DNA of 64,000 nt from a virus: positions 62,001 to 126,000 of IMG/VR virus record IMGVR_UViG_3300029922_000001; one strand, 5' to 3'. Position numbers and translations under genes: made by a program. Shown piece after piece: positions 14,851 through 63,900 of this stretch; within the stretch, counting starts at the first letter, position 1; each line of letters begins with the position of its first letter. The notes under the pieces are model-generated. The model worked only from the letters and a program-made list of their open reading frames with translations, was not told the DNA's origin and did no database searches.

Positions 14851-17475
14851 ATGAGTGAAAAAAATATTCCATTAAGGCAAGTTCTGTCCGAGACTGCACA
14901 AAATGTGACAAGAAATGGTAACAAGCAAAAAGTATCTGTTAATGAAGCAATCATTAACAATGCAATGGACGTTATGGTTCCATTTCCTCGTCCTCATGCA
15001 ACTTCCTTTGAAGGTCGTGGTGCTTCTAGAGATCAAGGTTTAACAAGAACAGCCAATAGAATGAATCGTATTGCTTTTGGTGGAATGGGCGGCGGTGGTA
15101 TGGGTGGCGGTATGGGTGGAACTATTTCCACTCCACCACAATTTTATAGACCACAGTTAACCTCTATTGCTTTTAACACTGTTACACAAAGAAAAGAAGT
15201 ATATAACCAAGTTGATTGGTGGTTAAGAAATGAACCTATTATTGCTGCTGCTATTTTATTCTATTCTAGATTTCCCTTTTCTGGTTGGAAATTAGAAGGT
15301 TGCACCAGTTATGTAAAAGAATATTTCGAAAAGTTAATTGCTAAACTAGAGTTTGCTAAATGGCTACCATTAATTGCACAAGAATACTATGCAATGGGAG
15401 ACTGTTTTGTACAAGCTGAAATTAATTGTCCACTTTGTCATGGAAGTATGCAAGATGAATCAGGACAACCATGTAAGCATGAAGGTGCTGTTTGGAAAAA
15501 TCTTTACGTACATGATCCATCTTCTATCGAAGTAAGTAATGCTTATCCTGGTATGCCACCACAATACTACTTAACACCAACAGAAGAAATGAAAAGAGTT
15601 GTTATGGAAAAGCATCCTCGTGAACATTATGAGGCAATTCCAAATAAACTCAAGATGACTATTGCACAAGGTAATCCTATTCCTTTAGATCCTAGTTGTC
15701 TTACACACTTTAAACATTTTGGTAATGCTTATGCACCTTTTGGCAACTCTTTAATTAAGCCACTATTTCCATTGCTTATGTATAAAGATAGATTGCGCCA
15801 AGCACAATGGTTAATTGCAGAGAGGCACATTCTACCCATCAAAATCGTTAAGTTGGGTTCTGATAAGCGTTATGCTGGTGAAGCCGATCTACAGGCAGTA
15901 CAAGAGGAATTAGCAGCAGTTGCTAACGATCCATTCTTGACCTTAGTCGTACCTCATGACTTTGATTTTGAATTTTACGGTGCAACAGGTAAAGTACTTC
16001 AAATTACAGAAGAATTTGGACTTATTGAAAAAGAAATGATCAATGGTTTGATGCTTAACCAAGCTATTCTTAGTGGTGAAGGTCCTTCATACGCTAATGC
16101 TTCTATCGGTTTACTTGTTATGGCAAGACGTTTAGAAGAATTTAGAAATATAGTTGCAGAATGGATTCAAGAAAAATTATTCAAACCTGTTGCTATGTGG
16201 AACGGTTTCGAAGAAGAAGATGATACAGGTACTACTAAATATATTTATCCTAAGATTAAGTTTGATGACTTACAACTTAAAGATAACACTGGAACACTAC
16301 AGATTGTTATGCAATGTGTTGCTCAAGGATTCTTACCAGTACAAACTATTGTTGAAATGTTAGACTTAGATTGGGATACTCAAGTTGAAAGATTACGCTT
16401 TGAACAATCTATCAATATTATGCAAACCCCATCTGTTACTGGTACTGATATGGGAACAGGATTTAGAGGTCCAATGGGTGCGGATATGTCAGGTGGAATG
16501 GCTCAACAAGCTGGATTACCACCATTACCAATGGGTGGAATGGGTGCTGGTGCATCTGGAAATCCTGGTGGTGCTGGTGGCGGTGGTGCTTTGCCAGGTC
16601 AAGGAAACATCCCAGCAGTAGCTACAATACATTCACCTTGGGCTAGAGTTGCACAAGAAGTTCCTGAAGCTTACAGAATCGCACAAGATTTAACACGTCA
16701 CATTTATAACGAATACAATTTCTCTCAAGTTGATCAAACTAGTAGAGATAAAGGTAGTTATTCTTTGGTTAGAACCGCAGAAGAAAGTATTGGTATGTAC
16801 CGTAAAGCACATGCTATTACTAAAGAAGTATTTATGGAAGCATTAGATAATCCTAGATACAAGCGTAAGGCATCTAGAATCAAGAGTGCGGCTCATGCTA
16901 AGTTCTTAGAAACAGTTCGCCCTATTACTGGTAGAGGTTTCGATAAGCAACTATTACCTGAAAATGAAGTTTACTTTGTTGATTTTGGTAATTTTGTAGG
17001 AACTGGCGTACCAATGAACCGTCTCGCTATTAGAGATTACTTCTTTGATGATTCAGTACAAGAAATTGATGGCGTCAGAGTTGTAACTGCTCAAAGAAAG
17101 CCACAAGTTAATTTGCCTAAAGAGTACTTTACCAGTATCGAACAAGCACTTTACAATATCGTACTTGAAGCTGGTATTCCTTATGCATTTTATGCACAAT
17201 TTGCGGCTGGACCTGATGGTAAATACAAGATTGATGGTGCTTTCCCAGCAATTAAATTAGGGTTTGAAGCTGACTCAGAATCTTTCCACTCTCATGATGA
17301 TCAAATTGCTAGAGATAGACAAAGGGATCAAGAGTTAATGTCTCAAGGTTGGACAATTATGAGATTTACAGATCACGACATTAAACAAAAAGATAAAGAG
17401 GTACTTCGTGTTATCCAAGAAGTTGCATCAAAAATCATGGGACAATCCAGTAACTCCAATACTATCCAACTTTAA
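14851..17475 (+). CDS. Portal protein fused to a C-terminal DUF559/Vsr-like nuclease domain, 874 aa
   Basis: The portal forms the dodecameric ring for DNA entry and tail joining. Residues about 105-545 carry portal features: WWLRNEPIIAAAILFYSRFPFSGW, then an acidic-aromatic core, the clip and stem region (QWLIAERHILPIKIVKLG), and a helical wing (EFRNIVAEWIQEKLFKPV). A Cys/His cluster (C193, C196, then C and H near 210) may bind zinc. A Gly/Met-rich linker (about 545-595) leads to a C-terminal domain with D795, E806 and D808 in the order D-x10-E-x-D, then RDQELMSQGW and MRF. This is the DUF559/Vsr-like PD-(D/E)xK pattern. At 874 aa it is far longer than a typical 450-550 aa portal. The portal call rests on pattern and context. 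Confidence 0.85.
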   Translation: MSEKNIPLRQVLSETAQNVTRNGNKQKVSVNEAIINNAMDVMVPFPRPHATSFEGRGASRDQGLTRTANRMNRIAFGGMGGGGMGGGMGGTISTPPQFYRPQLTSIAFNTVTQRKEVYNQVDWWLRNEPIIAAAILFYSRFPFSGWKLEGCTSYVKEYFEKLIAKLEFAKWLPLIAQEYYAMGDCFVQAEINCPLCHGSMQDESGQPCKHEGAVWKNLYVHDPSSIEVSNAYPGMPPQYYLTPTEEMKRVVMEKHPREHYEAIPNKLKMTIAQGNPIPLDPSCLTHFKHFGNAYAPFGNSLIKPLFPLLMYKDRLRQAQWLIAERHILPIKIVKLGSDKRYAGEADLQAVQEELAAVANDPFLTLVVPHDFDFEFYGATGKVLQITEEFGLIEKEMINGLMLNQAILSGEGPSYANASIGLLVMARRLEEFRNIVAEWIQEKLFKPVAMWNGFEEEDDTGTTKYIYPKIKFDDLQLKDNTGTLQIVMQCVAQGFLPVQTIVEMLDLDWDTQVERLRFEQSINIMQTPSVTGTDMGTGFRGPMGADMSGGMAQQAGLPPLPMGGMGAGASGNPGGAGGGGALPGQGNIPAVATIHSPWARVAQEVPEAYRIAQDLTRHIYNEYNFSQVDQTSRDKGSYSLVRTAEESIGMYRKAHAITKEVFMEALDNPRYKRKASRIKSAAHAKFLETVRPITGRGFDKQLLPENEVYFVDFGNFVGTGVPMNRLAIRDYFFDDSVQEIDGVRVVTAQRKPQVNLPKEYFTSIEQALYNIVLEAGIPYAFYAQFAAGPDGKYKIDGAFPAIKLGFEADSESFHSHDDQIARDRQRDQELMSQGWTIMRFTDHDIKQKDKEVLRVIQEVASKIMGQSSNSNTIQL

Positions 17476-17487
17476 TAAGTTGGATAG
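17462..17487 (+). terminator. Hairpin at the portal/kinase junction with the portal stop in its loop
   Basis: CTATCCAACTT (17462-17472) pairs perfectly with AAGTTGGATAG (17477-17487) around a TAAT loop that contains the portal stop. No U-tract follows, so it may act as an mRNA end or processing structure, or tune kinase translation, rather than as a strong intrinsic terminator. Confidence 0.45.
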
Positions 17488-17497
17488 ATTGCCTGGA

Positions 17498-18124
17498 ATG
17501 CAATTAGGTCATTATTTCAAAGAAAATTATTACTTTATTGAATATAATGCCTTGCCAGAAAACTTATTACTACAAAAAAATAAGTTTCACACTAATTTAC
17601 TTCAAGCTGTTGACTGCATAGAGTCTAACAATAAATATTATGTTGTGTATCCTTTTATTCAAAACAAATACGATTTGATGAAATTGGAATATAATGATAA
17701 ATACACAAAAATAAAACAAATTGTTGATGTTATTAGAGTATTGCACGATGAAAATTTAATTCATGGAGATATACAGCGTAGAAACATCTTAATTGATGAA
17801 GATATACATTTGATTGATCTAGAAACACTGTCCATTAATGACACAATTAGTACTCAGTTTTTAAAAGTACCAGAATTGGTTTATGGTGGGAATTTAAATA
17901 AGCAAACTGACATTTACATGCTCTGTTTATTAATTTACGAAGTTTTAAACGAAAGTGTTATACCAATATTAAAAACCCCATTAGCTTCTATATGCTATTA
18001 CAACACGCTCCAACCTGTCCGCAACAGGTTAAATAAAACACTTTTCGATGTTATCCAAACAGGTTTATCTCCAAACCCCTTAGAACGTAAAGTGGATGTT
18101 CAAGAAATTTATAATTCTTTTTAG
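17498..18124 (+). CDS. Reduced protein kinase-like protein, 208 aa
   Basis: It resembles Ser/Thr-type protein kinases in the C-lobe. The catalytic loop is HGDIQRRN (H89, D91, N96), matching HxDxxxxN. The DFG position reads LIDLE (D107). A PEL segment stands for APE, followed by TDIYMLCLLIYEVL, the F-helix TDxxxxG-like region, and an Arg late in the domain. The N-lobe is short and no Gly-rich loop is obvious, so ATP binding by the usual route is uncertain. It lies between portal and protease genes. ATG 17498 follows the hairpin. A GTG at 17408 would give a 238-aa form overlapping the portal. Substrates are unknown. The gene ends in TAG. Confidence 0.75.
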   Translation: MQLGHYFKENYYFIEYNALPENLLLQKNKFHTNLLQAVDCIESNNKYYVVYPFIQNKYDLMKLEYNDKYTKIKQIVDVIRVLHDENLIHGDIQRRNILIDEDIHLIDLETLSINDTISTQFLKVPELVYGGNLNKQTDIYMLCLLIYEVLNESVIPILKTPLASICYYNTLQPVRNRLNKTLFDVIQTGLSPNPLERKVDVQEIYNSF

Positions 18125-18176: not shown

Positions 18177-18215
18177 ATGTGGTTTTTCAAAAAATCATTT
18201 CTGAGCATCGTTTAA
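18177..18215 (+). CDS. Possible 12-residue leader peptide upstream of the protease start
   Basis: AAAGGTG precedes ATG 18177 by about 6 nt. This ATG opens a short frame, MWFFKKSFLSIV, that stops at 18213-18215. Its stop overlaps AAGGGAG (18214-18220), which lies before the protease ATG at 18233. It would fit translational coupling, or the SD may instead serve the GTG at 18179. Confidence 0.3.
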   Translation: MWFFKKSFLSIV

Positions 18216-21200
18216 GGGAGCCAAAAGAAAACATGATACGCAAAGGAATATCAGGCGGTGTAATAGGTTTAAACAATTTAATTTGTTTGAACAAAAAAGA
18301 AGCAAACGCAATTAAGGCTAGAATCTTAACGGCATCTAGTTTGCGTGAAAGTGCCCGTATCGGTTTGCAACGTTTGTATGCAGACCCCGAAGATGCACTA
18401 AAGAAATATAAAGGAACCGAATTTGACATCGCCAACGAAATGCTTGAACGTCGTGGCATGAAATTACTATGGGTTAGATGTAGAGCTATTGACGCTAACG
18501 TAGTAAATGCTAATGGTGATTACTTCTCTACTAAAGAGTTATTGAAAGAAACCATACACAATGGCAAAAAAGTTCCAGCCTATAAAACATTTGAAGGCGT
18601 ACCAATTTATACCAATCATGAAAATGATGACATTGAAAAAGCAAAAGGTACTGTAGTTTATGCAGAGTGGGACGAAAAGGAAGAAGCGGTTTATTGTGTA
18701 TTTTACATAGACGAAGAAGCTTATCCCGAAATTGCTCATGCTATTCGTGGTGGAATTATGCACGACGTTAGTATGGGTTGTTTTATTCCAGGTACTAGAG
18801 TATTAACTAATTCAGGATATAAGAATATTGAAAATGTAAATATAAACGATTTACTTTTAGATAAAGATGGTAATTTTACCACTATAGTTAATAGACAAAT
18901 TAAAATTAAAAACGAAGATATTTTTGACATTAAATTTAATGGCGGCTTAACCATTAGTGCAACAAAAGAACATCCTCATTTTGTATTTAAAAAAGATGTA
19001 TGGAAATCTAGAAAAACTAGAAATAAACCAGGCAAAGGAAAAGAACGATGGTCTTATAAAGATATTGGAGAGCCAATTGAAATTACTTCTGAAAACTTAG
19101 AAGTTGGTGACGTGCTAGTAACACCTATTAATCAGGTTGAATTAAATCCTGATAATATAACTCCTGATTTCGCTAGATTATTAGGTTATTTTTTGGCTGA
19201 AGGAAATTTTCTTAAATACAATGATTCTATTAAAGAATTAGAGCTTACTTTTGGTCTTCACGAAAAATATACATTAGTTCAAGAATTTATTACACTTTTT
19301 TCAAAAGAATTTCCAAATTCTACAATTAGAGTATATGATCGTATACCTAACAATAATTGTGTTATTAGAGTATATGACACTGAAATAGCTAATTTATTTT
19401 ACAAATATTGCGGAGAATATTCTGATAGTAAAAAACTAGATTCATCATTAATGTTCCTTCCTAAAAATATTCAATTAGAATTAATCAAAGGGTATTTTAA
19501 TGGTGACGGTTGTATTCATCGTGCTAAAGATCGTGTTATTGGATTAAGCGCATCTTCTTGTTCTTTGGATTTAGTAGAACAAATCTCAATGATATTATTT
19601 AGAAATGGAATTTATCACAAGAAAAATGGAAGAATTAATGGGAAATATATTGAATATACCAAATCTAAAGAAGCATGGAAGCAGAAAGGTGATTTTAGGA
19701 AAACATATTATGAAATTTCTATTCCTCAAGCTTATTGTCCTCAATTGTTAAATGAAACTAGATTTGATTTTCAACCCAACTTACGACAAGATAATTTTCA
19801 TTATGGTAATTGGATAATTCATCCAATTAAAAACATAATCAAAAGACACTATGAAGGATTAGTATATAATTTTGAAACAGAAAGCCATACATATATGGTT
19901 GAGAATTTTGCTACTCATAATTGCGCGGTTCAATCTGGTAATTGTTCAATTTGTGGCAAAGAAGCAGTTAAGGAAGATGATTACTGTAGTCACATGAAGA
20001 ATTACAAGGGTAAGAAATTCCCTGGAACTGGCGAAATTGCTTACGAAAAGAATAAAGATATTAAGTTTATTGAAATCTCTATTGTTGCAGATGGTGCTTT
20101 TGATTCTTGTATGATTAAAGAAATTTACGAACAAGAAGAAATTGAAAATGCTGCTTCACAATTAAGACATAAGACTGCAAGTGTACAAGCAAACATTCTA
20201 TTAGCTGAAAACAATCTTCCAGAAGACATGCTTGAAAGAAGAAAGAGTGAAGAATTCTTACGTGCTATCAATAATTGTAATATTGAAATCTTTAGATTCG
20301 CTGAAAAATTAGGACACACAACTAGAATAGCTCAAGAAGCTGGAACATTAGTTGGTGGACAAATGGGTGGTGGACAAATAGGACAAAACGCTACAGTTAA
20401 TACACTAATGCAATTACTAGGTATTGATCCTACTACTGGATTAAATATCTTAGACATGTTGAACTTAGCTCTTAACTTCTTAGAAGTTGCAGTTATGGAA
20501 TTACTTTCTAAGAGTAGTTCAGTTAAGCTTGAGTACGTTAACAAGGTGACTAAAGCTATGACAGATTTACAAGATGTTATGGAAGACGTTATTAATGACG
20601 GTGTTGATGTTGCACAACAACCACAAGGTGTTCAATTACAAGGTGGTCCAGTTTCACAACAGCAACCAGTACCAGGACAGCAACCACAAGGACAACAACA
20701 ACAAACTCAAGTACCAGGTCAAGGACAACCAGGACAGGTACAACAGCAAGCAAATGTTATGCCAATGGCTTATCAACCAGCAGTTGGTCAGGTAACAGGT
20801 CCTATGTTTGGCGCTTTACCTGGTGTTACAGCTACATCAAGTAATAGAAAATTAGTATGGGCATCACATGATGACGATGATGTTCGTGAGGTTTTTGCCT
20901 CTAGCAATAGAGGTACCAGTGTAAAGAAAGTTAAATCTTTCGATGAAGCTTTAACTCACATTGGAGAAGTAGTTATCAAACTAGCAAGTGCAGTTGGTGT
21001 TGCTGACGATTCATCACTAAAAGCACTCAATTTTAAAATTAAAAAGAATCAAGAACAAAGCAAATCGACTCAACCCGGAGGAAACAATATGGAAAACAAC
21101 ATCTTCAACGAAATGGCGCAAAGACATCGTTTGCGCAACGCATCCAAACTCTCTATTGATGCAGTGTTTACAGACCACTCAAATAGATATAGTGTAGCCA

Positions 21201-23788
21201 TCTCAACAGATGGAACTGTCAAAGCGTCTGTAGACAACAAGCGTGTTGCTTGGGATTGTAGATTGAACGATACTCAAATCGAACGTCTTCAAAACAATGA
21301 CATTGCTCCTGTAGGTAACGAAATTCTAGATACATTTGTTGGTTTTGTTAAAACCGCAGAAACAGAAGGACGTAAAATTCTTGCATACGAAAAGCCAAAA
21401 ACTGTTACTAACATTTTCGAAGTTAGCTTAGAAGGTGAAAGAACTGGTACTGATGATGATGTTAGAGAAAACACTATCAAACCATTAAGAACCGGTGTTG
21501 AAGACGAAACTCAAGAAGTTAAACTTGAAAAGTATCGTACAGGCGTTAAAGAAGATGTTAGAGAAAATCTACTAGCAGATGAAGCTGGTTTATATGCACG
21601 TCGTAACGAAGAACGTGATATTGCAGAAGTTCTTTTGGAAGATGCTCGTGTTGGAGTTAATGAAGAAGTATTAGAAAATAAGCTTAATCATCACCGTGCC
21701 CAAGAAAGCAGTGTTGAAACACATGAAGCTGTTGCTAAAGTTCTAAGTGGTTTTGGTAATGCTGTACTAGCATCTAAGAATACTCCAGATGAAGTAGTTA
21801 CTGCCGCTATTGAATTAGCTAAGAAAGACAACTTCAATGAATTATTGGTAGTTGCTGCTGCTGGAACACAAACTAGAACAAAAGTTGCTTCTAGATATGC
21901 TTTCCACAACAAACCACTTCCTACACTATCTGCTTCTGCCGCTGTTCTTAATGAATTAGGTAAGGTAATCGTTAGTGGAGTTTCTGCTGTTGATGTTGCT
22001 CAAATTGTTAGAGAAGCAAGTGCAAATAAAGATCATGCTGTTAAAGCAGCATATATTGATGCTAAAGGTAAAATGGGAGAAGACTTCTCATTCGACGCTT
22101 ATTATTCTCAAAGAGAAGCAAGTAAAACAGACGCTATTCGTGTCGCGTTAGCTAGTTTATCAGGCGATGCAAATGATAACATTTCAGGTGTTGAACAAGT
22201 TAAAACAGCTTTGGCTGCTATGGCAAAAACAACTGTTGCTATCAAAGTTACACCAAAGGAAATTCTTACAGTATTAGCTAGTGTTGATGCTAAGCAATTA
22301 TCCAAGGACTTAACAGTTGCAAGAGATGCTAAAGAAGTTAAAGCAAGAAATGATTTACGTGAAAGAGTTGCCTTCTTTGAAGGTGCAAACATCCGTATCG
22401 CTAGTGAAGTAGACATCTACAATACTATCGTAGGTTACTTAGCTGACTATGCCAACAAAGATAAGTTCAATACATCTTCTATCGTAGAAGCTATTGGTAG
22501 AGTTGTAGACAAACCTCGTTATGCTGAGAAATATGTTTCTCGTTTAGCTTTCTCAAGTATTAGAGAAGCTGAAGCTACTATTACAGAAGACACAAACATC
22601 ACTCGTCGTCTTCAATGTACATTGGGTGAATTAGGATTAGACGCTAAAGATGAAAACTTTGACGACATGTTAAAGCAAAAAGTTGCTGAACTATTCGTTC
22701 AAAGAGGATATCCTATTGATCCAAACAACTTTAATCTAACTGATGTTATGATTACTGCTGAAGGTGCATGTACAGCAACTATTAGTACACGTTCAACAAA
22801 GACATTCAAAGTTGATCCTAGTGAATCTGGTGAAGATGAAAATGTAATCTCAGTAGATGGCGCTCCTACTCCTTTTGAACCAGAAGCACAACCTACAGAG
22901 GGTGAAGGCGTTCCTCTTGTTCCTACAGATATGTCTCTACCTCCGACAGATCCAAACGAACAACCAACTATCATGACTGCTGGTGCAATTGCTCTTAGAA
23001 AAGCTAAGAGAGAAAATCTATTAAGATTAGCTCAAATGCCAGGTGGCGGTGGTGGTGGAATGCCAGGTGCTGGCGGTGGAATGCCAGGTGGTGCTGGTGC
23101 TGCTGGTGCTGCTGGCGCACCTGATTTATCTGGTGCTGGTGACGGTCCTGGTGTTGGTGCATTAACCAATCCTCCTGATGGTGGATTAGATGATATGGGT
23201 GGAAGTGATCAAGCTACTGAAAACAAGGATTCTATGCCTACTCCTGGTAAGCAACTTCCTTGGGGTTCAATCTGTCCTGCCTGTGGTTCTGCTAGTGTTT
23301 CATTAGTAGACGGTAAAGGTAGCTGTGCTGATTGTAAAGCTGAAATCACATATGAATTCAAAGCAACAGTTATTCCTGGTAGCAAGAAGAATGAAGAAGC
23401 TCCTACAGATGAAATGTCTATGGACATTCCAGGCTTAGGAACCTTGCCAGGTGCTGAAGCTGGTGCAAATGGTGCAACCCCTCCTGCTGGTGGCGCACCA
23501 GGAATGGGCGGTGCTGCTCCTGCTGGTGGACAAGCTCTACTACAAGCACAAGCTTCTTGGTTAGCTGATAGTCGTACTTTTGTTAGAACAGCACAAGCTG
23601 ACTTTAACAAAGCTACAGAACAAGTTCTACCTCCTGGTTTCATCTGTCCTGGTTGTGCAAACAGAGAAGTTAATAAACTTGGATCTCAAACATTCTGTTA
23701 CGCTTGTAAGACAATAAGTAAGAGTCAAATTATAGCTTCCAGAATCCCTGGAAAGGTTATAGCTAGAGTCACTTGGGTTCTTAAATAA
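18179..23788 (+). CDS. Prohead protease precursor with intein and long C-terminal extension, 1869 aa
   Basis: This is a maturation protease of the HK97/U35-like type that cleaves scaffold and capsid N-termini in the prohead. The putative catalytic His is H147 (in YTNHEND) and Ser is S198 (in HDVSMG). An intein occupies residues 201-581, three residues after that Ser. After excision, MG joins CAVQSG, then CSICGKEAVKEDDYCSHM (possible zinc site) and FIEISIVADGAFDS, matching the family's EiSlV motif. The remainder, residues about 640-1869, has a Gln/Pro linker, RTGV-type repeats, a Gly-rich linker, and two Cys-x2-Cys zinc ribbons near 1699-1720 and 1823-1845. The start is GTG 18179; ATG 18233 is a plausible alternative behind AAGGGAG. 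A strong in-frame internal start lies at 21089. Confidence 0.88.
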   Translation: MVFQKIISEHRLREPKENMIRKGISGGVIGLNNLICLNKKEANAIKARILTASSLRESARIGLQRLYADPEDALKKYKGTEFDIANEMLERRGMKLLWVRCRAIDANVVNANGDYFSTKELLKETIHNGKKVPAYKTFEGVPIYTNHENDDIEKAKGTVVYAEWDEKEEAVYCVFYIDEEAYPEIAHAIRGGIMHDVSMGCFIPGTRVLTNSGYKNIENVNINDLLLDKDGNFTTIVNRQIKIKNEDIFDIKFNGGLTISATKEHPHFVFKKDVWKSRKTRNKPGKGKERWSYKDIGEPIEITSENLEVGDVLVTPINQVELNPDNITPDFARLLGYFLAEGNFLKYNDSIKELELTFGLHEKYTLVQEFITLFSKEFPNSTIRVYDRIPNNNCVIRVYDTEIANLFYKYCGEYSDSKKLDSSLMFLPKNIQLELIKGYFNGDGCIHRAKDRVIGLSASSCSLDLVEQISMILFRNGIYHKKNGRINGKYIEYTKSKEAWKQKGDFRKTYYEISIPQAYCPQLLNETRFDFQPNLRQDNFHYGNWIIHPIKNIIKRHYEGLVYNFETESHTYMVENFATHNCAVQSGNCSICGKEAVKEDDYCSHMKNYKGKKFPGTGEIAYEKNKDIKFIEISIVADGAFDSCMIKEIYEQEEIENAASQLRHKTASVQANILLAENNLPEDMLERRKSEEFLRAINNCNIEIFRFAEKLGHTTRIAQEAGTLVGGQMGGGQIGQNATVNTLMQLLGIDPTTGLNILDMLNLALNFLEVAVMELLSKSSSVKLEYVNKVTKAMTDLQDVMEDVINDGVDVAQQPQGVQLQGGPVSQQQPVPGQQPQGQQQQTQVPGQGQPGQVQQQANVMPMAYQPAVGQVTGPMFGALPGVTATSSNRKLVWASHDDDDVREVFASSNRGTSVKKVKSFDEALTHIGEVVIKLASAVGVADDSSLKALNFKIKKNQEQSKSTQPGGNNMENNIFNEMAQRHRLRNASKLSIDAVFTDHSNRYSVAISTDGTVKASVDNKRVAWDCRLNDTQIERLQNNDIAPVGNEILDTFVGFVKTAETEGRKILAYEKPKTVTNIFEVSLEGERTGTDDDVRENTIKPLRTGVEDETQEVKLEKYRTGVKEDVRENLLADEAGLYARRNEERDIAEVLLEDARVGVNEEVLENKLNHHRAQESSVETHEAVAKVLSGFGNAVLASKNTPDEVVTAAIELAKKDNFNELLVVAAAGTQTRTKVASRYAFHNKPLPTLSASAAVLNELGKVIVSGVSAVDVAQIVREASANKDHAVKAAYIDAKGKMGEDFSFDAYYSQREASKTDAIRVALASLSGDANDNISGVEQVKTALAAMAKTTVAIKVTPKEILTVLASVDAKQLSKDLTVARDAKEVKARNDLRERVAFFEGANIRIASEVDIYNTIVGYLADYANKDKFNTSSIVEAIGRVVDKPRYAEKYVSRLAFSSIREAEATITEDTNITRRLQCTLGELGLDAKDENFDDMLKQKVAELFVQRGYPIDPNNFNLTDVMITAEGACTATISTRSTKTFKVDPSESGEDENVISVDGAPTPFEPEAQPTEGEGVPLVPTDMSLPPTDPNEQPTIMTAGAIALRKAKRENLLRLAQMPGGGGGGMPGAGGGMPGGAGAAGAAGAPDLSGAGDGPGVGALTNPPDGGLDDMGGSDQATENKDSMPTPGKQLPWGSICPACGSASVSLVDGKGSCADCKAEITYEFKATVIPGSKKNEEAPTDEMSMDIPGLGTLPGAEAGANGATPPAGGAPGMGGAAPAGGQALLQAQASWLADSRTFVRTAQADFNKATEQVLPPGFICPGCANREVNKLGSQTFCYACKTISKSQIIASRIPGKVIARVTWVLK
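18779..19921 (+). mobile_element. Intein with LAGLIDADG homing endonuclease, 381 aa
   Basis: This is an in-frame protein-splicing element. It begins with Cys (CFIPGTRVLTNSGYKNIENV; block A) and has block B-like TKEHPH. It ends VYNFETESHTYMVENFATHN just before Cys+1 (block F/G). Two LAGLIDADG motifs are present: LLGYFLAEGNF and ELIKGYFNGDG. All expected splice residues are there (Cys1, penultimate His, terminal Asn, Cys+1), so splicing looks functional. It sits within the conserved VSMG-C active-site motif of the prohead protease. The endonuclease would favour copying into intein-free alleles at that site. Confidence 0.95.
21077..21091 (+). promoter_or_regulatory. Internal Shine-Dalgarno GGAGG and in-frame ATG
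   Basis: GGAGG at 21077-21081, then 7 nt, then ATG at 21089, in the same frame as the protease (codon 971). The spacing and sequence are as good as any start in the window. Confidence 0.65.
21089..23788 (+). CDS. Nested in-frame product of the protease gene, scaffold-like, 899 aa
   Basis: Translation from ATG 21089 would give the C-terminal half alone. This half starts MENNIFNEMAQRHRLRNASK and is helix-rich, with Arg-Thr-Gly-Val/Glu-Asn repeats (about residues 110-200), a Gly-rich linker near 640, and two zinc ribbons at the end. A protease and a scaffold sharing one frame by an internal start is known from lambda C/Nu3. Here the role as scaffold is inferred from that arrangement and from position before the capsid gene. 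The product would not carry the protease or the intein. Expression has not been shown. Confidence 0.55.
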   Translation: MENNIFNEMAQRHRLRNASKLSIDAVFTDHSNRYSVAISTDGTVKASVDNKRVAWDCRLNDTQIERLQNNDIAPVGNEILDTFVGFVKTAETEGRKILAYEKPKTVTNIFEVSLEGERTGTDDDVRENTIKPLRTGVEDETQEVKLEKYRTGVKEDVRENLLADEAGLYARRNEERDIAEVLLEDARVGVNEEVLENKLNHHRAQESSVETHEAVAKVLSGFGNAVLASKNTPDEVVTAAIELAKKDNFNELLVVAAAGTQTRTKVASRYAFHNKPLPTLSASAAVLNELGKVIVSGVSAVDVAQIVREASANKDHAVKAAYIDAKGKMGEDFSFDAYYSQREASKTDAIRVALASLSGDANDNISGVEQVKTALAAMAKTTVAIKVTPKEILTVLASVDAKQLSKDLTVARDAKEVKARNDLRERVAFFEGANIRIASEVDIYNTIVGYLADYANKDKFNTSSIVEAIGRVVDKPRYAEKYVSRLAFSSIREAEATITEDTNITRRLQCTLGELGLDAKDENFDDMLKQKVAELFVQRGYPIDPNNFNLTDVMITAEGACTATISTRSTKTFKVDPSESGEDENVISVDGAPTPFEPEAQPTEGEGVPLVPTDMSLPPTDPNEQPTIMTAGAIALRKAKRENLLRLAQMPGGGGGGMPGAGGGMPGGAGAAGAAGAPDLSGAGDGPGVGALTNPPDGGLDDMGGSDQATENKDSMPTPGKQLPWGSICPACGSASVSLVDGKGSCADCKAEITYEFKATVIPGSKKNEEAPTDEMSMDIPGLGTLPGAEAGANGATPPAGGAPGMGGAAPAGGQALLQAQASWLADSRTFVRTAQADFNKATEQVLPPGFICPGCANREVNKLGSQTFCYACKTISKSQIIASRIPGKVIARVTWVLK

Positions 23789-26464: not shown

Positions 26465-27334
26465 ATGTCATCAATGATTAGAAATAATAAAGCATATAAT
26501 GAACAAAGAGAAGCCATCATTGCAATGGCAGTGGAAACACCTGATGGTCGTTCCGCTCTTGCTGGAGCTATGGTAGACCCTATCAAGAACGCTCTTAACT
26601 ACCAAGGCGTTATCCGTAAATTAATTATGGTAGACGAACTACCTCAAGGTGCTTACCCTCGCTACGAAAGAGATATTACAGTCAAAAGCTGGATCATCGG
26701 TAATCGTGCTGGTGTACCTGTTAGCGTTATCGAAGGCGAAGACTTATTTATCCCTACAGTCGAATTAGCAGCATTGCCTACAATTCGTCTCCAAGAGGTG
26801 AAAAGCAGGAGATATTACATAGTAGATCGTGCCCAAGTTAAGGCTAAGGACTCTCTACAACGTCAAGAAGATACTCTAGGATTTGAAGTTATCAACGCTG
26901 CTGTTCCAACAGAACAGTCAATTACAGTAGTTGGACAATTGCAACCTGAGAACCTTAACCACGCTTTAACACTTATTGAAGAACATGAATTGGTCGGAGC
27001 AAAGATAGTCCTTCCTCCTTCACGTTACAAAGATATTAGAGGCTTTGGTAAGGAATTCTTTGATGAAGCAACTCAAAGAGATATCTTAATGACAGGACTT
27101 TATGGACACATTTACTCTGCGGACATCCACGTAAGTACTATGGTTCCTAAGAACTGTGTGTATATCATGGCTCCTGCCCAATTCGTTGGTGCAATGCCTA
27201 TTCGTCAAGACGTTACAGTTATCCCTGCTGACGATCCTCGCAAGCTTCGCTTGGGTTGGGTAGTCTACGAAGATATCGGTATTGGCGTCATCAACGACTA
27301 TTCTTTGGCTCGTATTCAAGTAACTGTTTCCTAA
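26465..27334 (+). CDS. Major capsid protein, HK97-fold type, 289 aa
   Basis: This is the likely shell subunit. The layout fits compact HK97-fold capsids: an N-terminal helical arm (to about 60), then YPRYERDITVKSWI, a P-domain with long helix (LNHALTLIEEHELVGAKIVLPPSRYKDIRGFG), and a C-terminal A-domain (VYIMAPAQFVGAMPIRQDVTVIPADD, then WVVYEDIGIGVINDYSLA). The position downstream of the protease and decoration genes and followed by a terminator supports it. The SD AAGGAG is strong. Length is at the short end for this fold and there is no obvious long propeptide, so cleavage by the protease may be limited. The assignment is by pattern and context, without a search. Confidence 0.8.
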   Translation: MSSMIRNNKAYNEQREAIIAMAVETPDGRSALAGAMVDPIKNALNYQGVIRKLIMVDELPQGAYPRYERDITVKSWIIGNRAGVPVSVIEGEDLFIPTVELAALPTIRLQEVKSRRYYIVDRAQVKAKDSLQRQEDTLGFEVINAAVPTEQSITVVGQLQPENLNHALTLIEEHELVGAKIVLPPSRYKDIRGFGKEFFDEATQRDILMTGLYGHIYSADIHVSTMVPKNCVYIMAPAQFVGAMPIRQDVTVIPADDPRKLRLGWVVYEDIGIGVINDYSLARIQVTVS

Positions 27335-60914: not shown

Positions 60915-63900
60915 ATGTTAAGTCCCTACATGAATCAAAATAATCCATTACCTAAAGGTGCCTATCAGTGGGTGCCACCCGTTCCCGCGAATGGCTTAGC
61001 TACTGCTGGAAGTACTGCTGGATTTAACTTTCTATCTATTGTAAGAGGAACTTTTAGAAATGATGTTCCTAAAGATACACCAAACGATAGTAGAACTTAT
61101 GCCACTATTACTACTTCATATTCAGGCACAGTTAACGGTGTATCAGATAAGAATGATATTTCGAGAAACTACCCATTTTGGGCAGCTTTTAGACGAAAAA
61201 GAAGACCTAGTTGGAAGGTTGCAACACCACCAGTTGGAGTTAATTTCACTATGACTGCTGATGATAATGGTGTCTTAGAGTATAAAATTGATCTTGGATC
61301 TAATCAAAACATATCAGCTATGACAATGGAATATACATTAGTTGTAGATCCTAATTTCCCATATTGGAAAGACTTACTTGCTGATGCAGATGATACTAAT
61401 AACGCTAATGATCAACAAAACTTTGCCTCTGGAAATGTTACTGCGGTAAATTGGACACAATATCACCCTATGCAGATAGTTGGTATACCAGATGGATCTA
61501 ATACAGCTACAGAATATCCCTTGTTAGTTAAAAATAAATATCAAGCTTTAGCTATTACTGGTGTTAAGGGTAGTGGATTTGAAAATCTAACTAATATGCA
61601 GCAAAACCCCGCAAATGGAACACAGTTATATGCTCCAGGTGGTACTTTTACGTTTAATTTAGGTGCCCCTACTAGTTTTCCGAATATTCGTTATATTATT
61701 ATTCGTCAAAGAAATCCAGAATACCAAAATTTAACTTTATCTATTAATCGTATTTTATTATTTAATAATTCTAGAGTTAATATGGCAGATAAACAATATC
61801 CTGCTCAAGCATTTGGATATCAAGCGGATTTAGAAGCTAGTGTATATATAGATGGTAGTTCTTCTGGTGGTATTTATCCAAACTTGGAACCTGGTAGACC
61901 ATTAATATACTTTAAGATTTTCTCTCCAGAAGATTTAAATGCAAGTATTGGATTCGCACATGCAATAGATGTTAGATTTTTATTAGTTTGGTTTCCTATG
62001 TTATCTCAAGCTGGAGCAACCGCATATATGGCAATTAATGCAGGTCCATTGCCTGGATTAAAGCAATTGGCGTATAGCATGAACGCTACACTAGATAACA
62101 CGAATATTAATCCAATTTATGGATATGCAGTTAATTTAGACGCGGATAAGTTAGTTAATGATATTATCAGTTTTGATATTCAGCGCGGAACTGGTACTAC
62201 AACTACTCCACCTACTACTTGGTCAGAACTTCCGCAACCTAATAATCCAGTGTCAGAAAGTGATACAAATTATCAGTTTAATGGACCAATGGTTAGTCGA
62301 TATTTATATTTAGATACGTTACCTTTTAATGGCAAAACGCTCAATGATACATTTCAAACTAAAACGCCAATGTGGTATCGCATCAATCAAACATATAGCC
62401 TTGGTTCTGCGTCAGGATCAAGATTAAGCCCTGCTTTTCAGCCTTCACGATATTCTGAGGGTAGTCCTATGCAAATGGCTCCTGGGAGCGAAGTAGGTAA
62501 TTTGCCAACTACTGTTATTGCAAGAAGAATTAAAGATTATGTCTTGAGTGACCCTACTCAAGTTATGAACAGTTCACCGGTTGCTATTTTCATTGCTGAT
62601 GATCCAAATCCTCCTGCTGGTAGTGCTACATTTACCTCTGGTGTATTTAATTTTAGTTTTGCCGCTCATACTGATGATGCCAATAATGTTGCTGAAACTT
62701 ATTTAGTTGCAAGATTTTGGTTTCACCCAGTTGGCGTTACTTTTAATGCCCAAAATCCTCATCAATATAGAAGTGTTTCAGAGTTGATTTTTATTACAAA
62801 TAGTGCTGGAGAACAGGTTATTAGCAGACAAAACCCTGCTGATGTTTCGCAATTAATGATTTCCCCAGCGTTGGGTACGGATGATGCCAATTACTCTATT
62901 AACAAATACATTACTTCTGCTCAAGGAACGGGTGTTTCTAATAATGTGTGGACTTTCCCATCATCGTTTTCTCAACCTGGTAACACTTATAACCAAGGAA
63001 GATTAGTAATAGGTTTATATATTGTTACCGTTCCAAATCCTGGTGATACGACATTAAATTCAGTGAATTCAGCAACTTCTTCTGATTCATCTCCTAAAGT
63101 TTATATTACTGTTGATCCCACACGTATGAGTGTTACAACTACTATTGGTCAAACTATTACTGGTAACTTATTTCCAACTCAACCTAATTTATTTGGAACC
63201 GCAAATTATGAGTCCGTACCAGAACCTTTATATCTAAATGCTACTACATTAGCTGGCGCGACTTTAAACGCTACAAATAATTGGTACATTTACAATAATT
63301 CAGTTGCCACTCCTACTGTTAACAGCCCAGACACTGCTTTGAATAATTTAATGATAATGACATCTACAAATAACAATATTCAAGTTGCAATTCCGTACAA
63401 AAGTGTTCCTCTAACCTTTAGTTCTAATACAAGGGTGTATGCAGATTTTGTAACAAATAACCTTGTTCTCACTGATGGTAAAATAACTAACGGAACATGG
63501 ACTTTTAGTTTCACAGCAGATCAAGGTGCTGATACCGGATCTATTAGTTATAAATATCAATTTGAAGCATTTTTGTGTACAGCAGATGGCGTTTTAATCA
63601 ATTATATCTTGAAATCTCCTATTCAAGATTCAGCATCATATACGGTAGACTTAACATTACCTTATGCAATTGAATCTAATAATGTACAAATGGTAGTTAG
63701 AGTTTCAGGCTATCCATATTCCACAAATGGTACACCGATTGATTTATCAGTAATACAAACAGAATTAGGAAGTAAACCAGTTGGATTGAGAATTACAAAA
63801 TTCACAGTCTCAGCACACACATTAACCACAATGGATGTTAGTCAAACAGATAGTTTGTTATTGAGTATAGCCTCTTTTGAAGGTTTGCCAATGGTGCCAT

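Follow-up and report, generated by a model that had tools for sequence, protein, structure and literature searches.

A probable homing intein beside the probable catalytic serine of a T4 gp21-like head maturation protease, at a site shared by many phage records

Genes and features at the locus

The window analysed here is the whole stretch of 64,000 nucleotides corresponding to positions 62,001 to 126,000 of IMG/VR record IMGVR_UViG_3300029922_000001. The complete record has 441,498 bases, in which the protease described below was found only once. The window carries a head module in the order terminase (162-1688), portal, protease and major head protein. The relevant features are as follows (window positions; the symbol ^ in the text marks an insertion site or splice junction).

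14851-17475, plus strand: portal protein (phrog_16240, E 1.3e-37)
18179-23788, plus strand: open reading frame for the precursor of the head maturation protease; 1869 aa, of which 1488 remain without the intein
18233-18778, plus strand: N-extein with the protease domain, the NANGDYF motif, His147 (nt 18617-18619) and the probable nucleophile Ser198 (nt 18770-18772)
18779-19921, plus strand: class 1 intein of 381 aa (aa 201-581 of ORF 18179-23788), with Cys1, a TxxH block B, two LAGLIDADG motifs (E341, D443) and His-Asn, followed by Cys+1
19922-20200, plus strand: start of the C-extein, with Cys+1, a CxxC...YCxH zinc finger (C589 ... C603) and a FIEIS motif containing the putative third catalytic acid E632
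20201-23788, plus strand: long C-terminal region of the protease ORF with linkers and zinc knuckles, also present in intein-free relatives (ORFs of 1383-1447 aa)
26465-27334, plus strand: major head protein, the likely substrate (phrog_2522, E 1.6e-65)

Translation may begin at ATG 18233 instead of GTG 18179, since the proteins of relatives start at the position that matches MIRKGISGG. Because the start codon is ambiguous, the numbering of S198 changes with the start that is taken. Beyond the motifs of the C-extein the ORF runs for about 1200 further amino acids, with linkers and two CxxC knuckles, a length that is common to the relatives and hints at a protease-scaffold fusion. Two other features of the neighbourhood were recorded. 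The portal protein ends in a DUF559/MTES_1575 nuclease-like domain (aa about 789-858, E 4e-8), which is an unusual fusion, and a protein-kinase-like gene (17408-18124, Pfam Pkinase 6.5e-13) lies between portal and protease and overlaps the portal end.

The host protein is related to T4 gp21

The N-extein matched PHROG 18299, head maturation protease, with an E value of 1.7e-18. Homologues of the protease are found in Bacillus phage G (gp19), Rhodococcus phage E3 (gp77, 'prohead protease'), Bxz1-type mycobacteriophages and Tunturiibacter phage Tunturi_5 (gp331, 'head maturation protease'). In 11 divergent homologues the N.N.D motif, the His of the NH/EH motif, SMG and the three Cys of the CxxC...C zinc finger were invariant. 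Since the protease sequence gave nothing useful against the PDB and had no good match among Pfam models, fold prediction was needed. The protease domain modelled was that of an intein-free relative, L033 (pLDDT 87). When this model was compared with the PDB, T4 gp21 (5JBL) occupied ranks 1-3 (probability 1.00, E 1e-3 to 3e-3, TM 0.54 on target) and herpesvirus proteases appeared at lower ranks; in a viral structure library phage G gp19 came out on top, with many prohead proteases among the matches.

Alignment of the protease profile with T4 gp21 by hhalign set the Ser of SMG on Ser140 (prob 82, E 1e-5), while the NH motif (His147) corresponds by eye to NH85 of T4 and lies a few columns off in hhalign. 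Ser140 and His85 are the catalytic residues of T4 gp21. In the window protease the catalytic residues are thus very probably Ser198 and His147. A candidate for the third is the E/D conserved in the FxE/DxS motif, a plausible counterpart of the Asp in T4 and SPN3US. The host had been identified as a prohead protease, with Ser198 as its putative catalytic Ser, in an earlier sequence-only reading. The first assignment is upheld by the PHROG match, the fold match of L033 and the location in the head module, and the second by the invariant SMG and its alignment with T4 Ser140. T4 gp21, phage G gp19 and the Bxz1-type proteases share with the window protease the fold, the catalytic His and Ser and the gene order, but they have no intein; moreover, T4 gp21 is far shorter (212 aa), and its hhalign match stops at the Ser, with no zinc finger seen there.

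A canonical class 1 intein follows the Ser-Met-Gly motif

The residues at the two junctions of the insertion are S198-M199-G200^C201 and H580-N581^C582 (DVSMG^C...THN^C), so that the intein carries the canonical penultimate His and terminal Asn. Block B reads TKEH (T262, H265), and the two LAGLIDADG blocks read LLGYFLAEG (block C, E341) and YFNGDG (block E, D443). The intein differs in composition from its host, with 27% GC vs 38-39% in the exteins. Pfam LAGLIDADG_3 matched above its cut-off (E 1.7e-7), as did the NCBIfam model TIGR01445 (intein_Nterm), for which neighbours lie in frame, and PI-PkoII was found as a PDB sequence match (E 3e-17). The intein as modelled by AlphaFold2 (pLDDT 90) matched the TliVMA intein (E 2e-19), PI-SceI and PI-PfuI, and the best 16 PDB fold matches were all homing-endonuclease inteins, which points to a HINT fold with an inserted LAGLIDADG endonuclease. 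These Pfam, NCBIfam, PDB and AlphaFold2 matches leave little doubt that the intein call is not due to chance. Finally, exact removal of the intein gives a sequence as in the intein-free relatives.

The intein proposed at first from Cys1, two LAGLIDADG motifs, His-Asn and Cys+1 is therefore confirmed by motifs, profile matches, fold model and empty sites. It had been placed at 18179-19921; the end of this interval is correct, but 18179 is the start of the ORF and the intein itself starts at 18779. The active site was also said to be interrupted in the precursor, and indeed the intein keeps the catalytic pair Ser/His apart from the zinc finger and from the E/D conserved in FxE/DxS.

PI-SceI, PI-PfuI, TliVMA and PI-PkoII likewise have Cys1, TxxH, two LAGLIDADG motifs, His-Asn followed by Cys+1, and a two-domain fold. 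In the fold matches, however, the solved inteins are only 12-17% identical to the window intein, and the hosts of inteins of the PI-SceI/PI-PfuI/TliVMA/PI-PkoII type are ATPases or polymerases, whereas the host here is a prohead protease. Inteins with non-canonical penultimate residues have been described in the active centres of mycobacteriophage terminase and portal proteins (PMC5050341), and the window intein resembles those in being located at the active centre of a phage head or packaging protein. The part of this 2016 survey that was consulted lists inteins in terminases, portal, methylases and others, and names no prohead protease (PMC5050341). In the open PMC literature no description of an intein in a prohead, head or capsid maturation protease was found. 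Thus the type of intein is known, its host family seems unlisted so far, and the hot spot described below is the new part.

Two further insertions of the same phage genome lie outside the window. One is an intein in ribonucleotide reductase at an ATNPC^ site (L130; G000:C1:50527-51411). The other, in a PhoH-like ATPase at GSGK^ (L126; G000:C1:188685-189143), is intein-like, and its first residue Ala and Thr+1 suggest an intein of the class 3 type.

The protease is a recurrent target of inteins

Five such inteins were aligned and the alignment was used to scan IMG/VR; the junctions were then read out. Because inteins were the queries of the main search, the counts are those of carriers found and give no prevalence. 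In total 61 records had at least one intein in this protease, the window and Eggerthella phage LE2-3 included. The insertion was exactly SMG^C in 53 records (again counting the window); this answers the question, raised by the sequence-only reading, of whether viral inteins occur at the same insertion point. Some of the 61 records are near-copies of one another, and the number of distinct inteins at the SMG site is 44, with that of the window. Other positions in the protease were NNN^[C/S]D or one residue off (9 inteins), NF^CEH, directly before the catalytic His (2), a zinc-finger Cys (4), AEL^CGH (2), YFG^SN (1) and SMGLN^C (in LE2-3). Ten records had two or more inteins in the protease, and in L106 there were three (L106:3100-8133; YFG^SN, SMG^C and DY^C). 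The carrier contigs were up to 497 kb long. A portal protein with two inteins (L089:5086-9582, phrog_16240 1.4e-65) represents another multiply invaded head protein.

Among cultured phages LE2-3 was the only carrier found. Its intein (QXJ36673.1) is located in the same protease and is 28% identical to that of the window, but the insertion is two residues further downstream (SMGLN^C instead of SMG^C). The gene (L002:3899-7012, MW679026.1) is annotated 'tRNA synthetase' in GenBank. Kamryn-type proteases, with 293 phage records matched, were uninterrupted in 60 of 60 matches listed, spaced evenly down the ranking. Two other cultured phages were discarded as leads for a protease intein: the intein of CampHawk is in UvrD, and those of Campylobacter phage IBB_35 are in terminase, PhoH and RNR. 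An intein in a prohead protease had been regarded as less familiar than in other enzymes. That holds for cultured phages, with one case found, but not for uncultured contigs, where the identical site was read in 53 records. Taken together, the capsid protease is a hot spot for inteins, apparently an unlisted one.

Empty sites among relatives

About 30 relatives of the window protease (59-64% identical) lack the intein and read HDVSMG[A/C]xxxxxxCxxC, with unchanged spacing to CxxC. The exact MG-C junction that had been proposed as a check on intein-free homologues is thereby confirmed. Closer pairs were also found: L083 carries an intein and L142, L143, L145 and L146 do not (79-93% identical), and L007 carries one and L152 does not (84% identical). 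Between L083 and L145 the DNA identity is about 0.9 on each side of the junction. A co-conversion tract, that is a local excess of conservation at the insertion site, was not seen in two pairs.

In carriers at the SMG site the following residue was always Cys, while in many intein-free relatives (L010-L041, L152) it is Ala. An automatic listing of 44 distinct intein-free SMG sites, a few of which are not this protease, gave Cys at +1 in 25 and Ala in 17. Similarly, at the NNN^D site carriers have Cys or Ser, and intein-free genes have Leu, Lys or Gln. Since Ala is unable to act as the +1 nucleophile, Ala alleles could not host an SMG intein unless the codon were co-converted. A non-permissive residue after the insertion site could mark resistant alleles.

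Mobility and selection of the inteins

The 44 SMG-site inteins were aligned together with that of LE2-3 (n=45). Cys1, the T and H of block B and the terminal Asn were invariant (45/45), and the LAGLIDADG catalytic acids were kept in 44/45 (first) and 45/45 (second, Asp). The penultimate His, in contrast, was replaced by K, S, R or G in 15 of the 44 SMG-type inteins. Whole-intein dN/dS was 0.06-0.17 in five pairs, all those that could be computed, some with dS near saturation.

L088, L104 and L082 have exteins that are 83-87% identical and inteins at the same site that are only 32-44% identical; in L059 and L069 the inteins are 91% identical and the flanks 78%. Intein and extein distances nevertheless correlate (r 0.75), so the history is partly vertical or restricted to related hosts, with transfer mostly within related phages. 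In a quickly built tree that also took in viral and cellular inteins from elsewhere, and in which several branches are weak, the SMG-site label changed 5 times vs 28.7 by shuffling, and the window intein grouped with L042, L045 and L046 (support 98). Because well-supported branches force at least three of these changes, the SMG site has probably been invaded more than once. A recent cellular source was considered and rejected: the best 80 genome_contigs matches of the intein lie in other host genes, none in the protease, and many of them at a SufB-like VEG^CTAP junction.

Homing, regulation or decay

A homing mobile element is indicated by the empty sites, by the swapped inteins, by the retention of the endonuclease acids and by purifying selection. 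We hold it highly probable that the class 1 LAGLIDADG intein is such an element, residing in the head maturation protease gene of a huge tailed phage and spliced out to leave a normal protease. The endonuclease would most likely cut intein-less alleles at the constrained DNA encoding the active-site Ser-Met-Gly, and repair of the cut allele would copy the intein in. The sequence AGY/TCN ATG GGN is among the least variable DNA of the protease gene. Methionine has a single codon, and Ser-Met-Gly is invariant; the SMG DNA should therefore vary little and make a good endonuclease target. After translation, the intein would excise itself via Cys1, Asn581 and Cys+1, and excision would join ...HDVSMG to CAVQSGNCSICG... 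to give a normal T4 gp21-like protease. The predicted peptide across the ligated extein junction is VSMGCAVQSGNCSICGK. For the window intein both splicing and cutting at the SMG site are predictions.

A second possibility, put forward in the sequence-only reading, is that splicing acts as a switch: the intein would keep the prohead protease silent up to a late signal or a step of assembly and thereby set the timing of capsid maturation. Because the insertion parts the catalytic Ser and His from the zinc finger and the third acid, the unspliced precursor is probably inert, and in many phages inteins adjoin both catalytic residues. The penultimate His that is so often replaced among the SMG-type inteins is also suggestive, for in another phage intein a change at this position altered the splicing rate (PMC5050341). 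T4 does control its protease, through a self-cleaved N-terminal blocking segment that takes part in the activation of gp21 (PMC9958956) and an annotated inhibitor gene. The blocking segment, however, can be read the other way as well, since a protease with its own activation device does not need an intein for control. In addition, the window intein has the canonical His-Asn, the endonuclease acids are kept in nearly all SMG-site inteins, and very different inteins occupy near-identical proteases. The intein is missing from most close relatives and therefore is not a conserved part of capsid maturation. The proposed switch is thus weakened by the patchy presence of the intein, by intein-minus relatives (79-93% identical to another carrier, about 60% to the window protease) and by the swapped inteins, and we regard it as unlikely. 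A narrower version seems to us similarly unlikely: in many huge phages inteins would have colonised the prohead protease so densely round both catalytic residues that, in some lineages, slow or conditional splicing now licenses an inert and sometimes multiply interrupted precursor and helps to time maturation.

It is hardly credible that the intein is degenerate and non-splicing, or the allele decaying or an assembly chimera, with the protease dead or supplied by another gene: the deviating base composition of the intein would fit, but all catalytic residues are present, one frame is open over 1869 codons, homologous inteins are under purifying selection, the identical junction recurs in 53 records from many assemblies, and the 441-kb record yielded a single protease copy.

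Significance

With the homing element as the preferred reading, a capsid-assembly protease joins the host proteins of inteins. The inteins help to explain why this head gene is mis-annotated (e.g. as a tRNA synthetase) or missed in huge phages. What appeared as a single curiosity becomes a system: 44 distinct inteins occupy one site, relatives at 79-93% identity have this site naturally empty, near-identical genes carry very different inteins, and some genes hold two or three of them. Such a system lets one test whether insertion at an active site reflects a conserved DNA target only, or regulation too.
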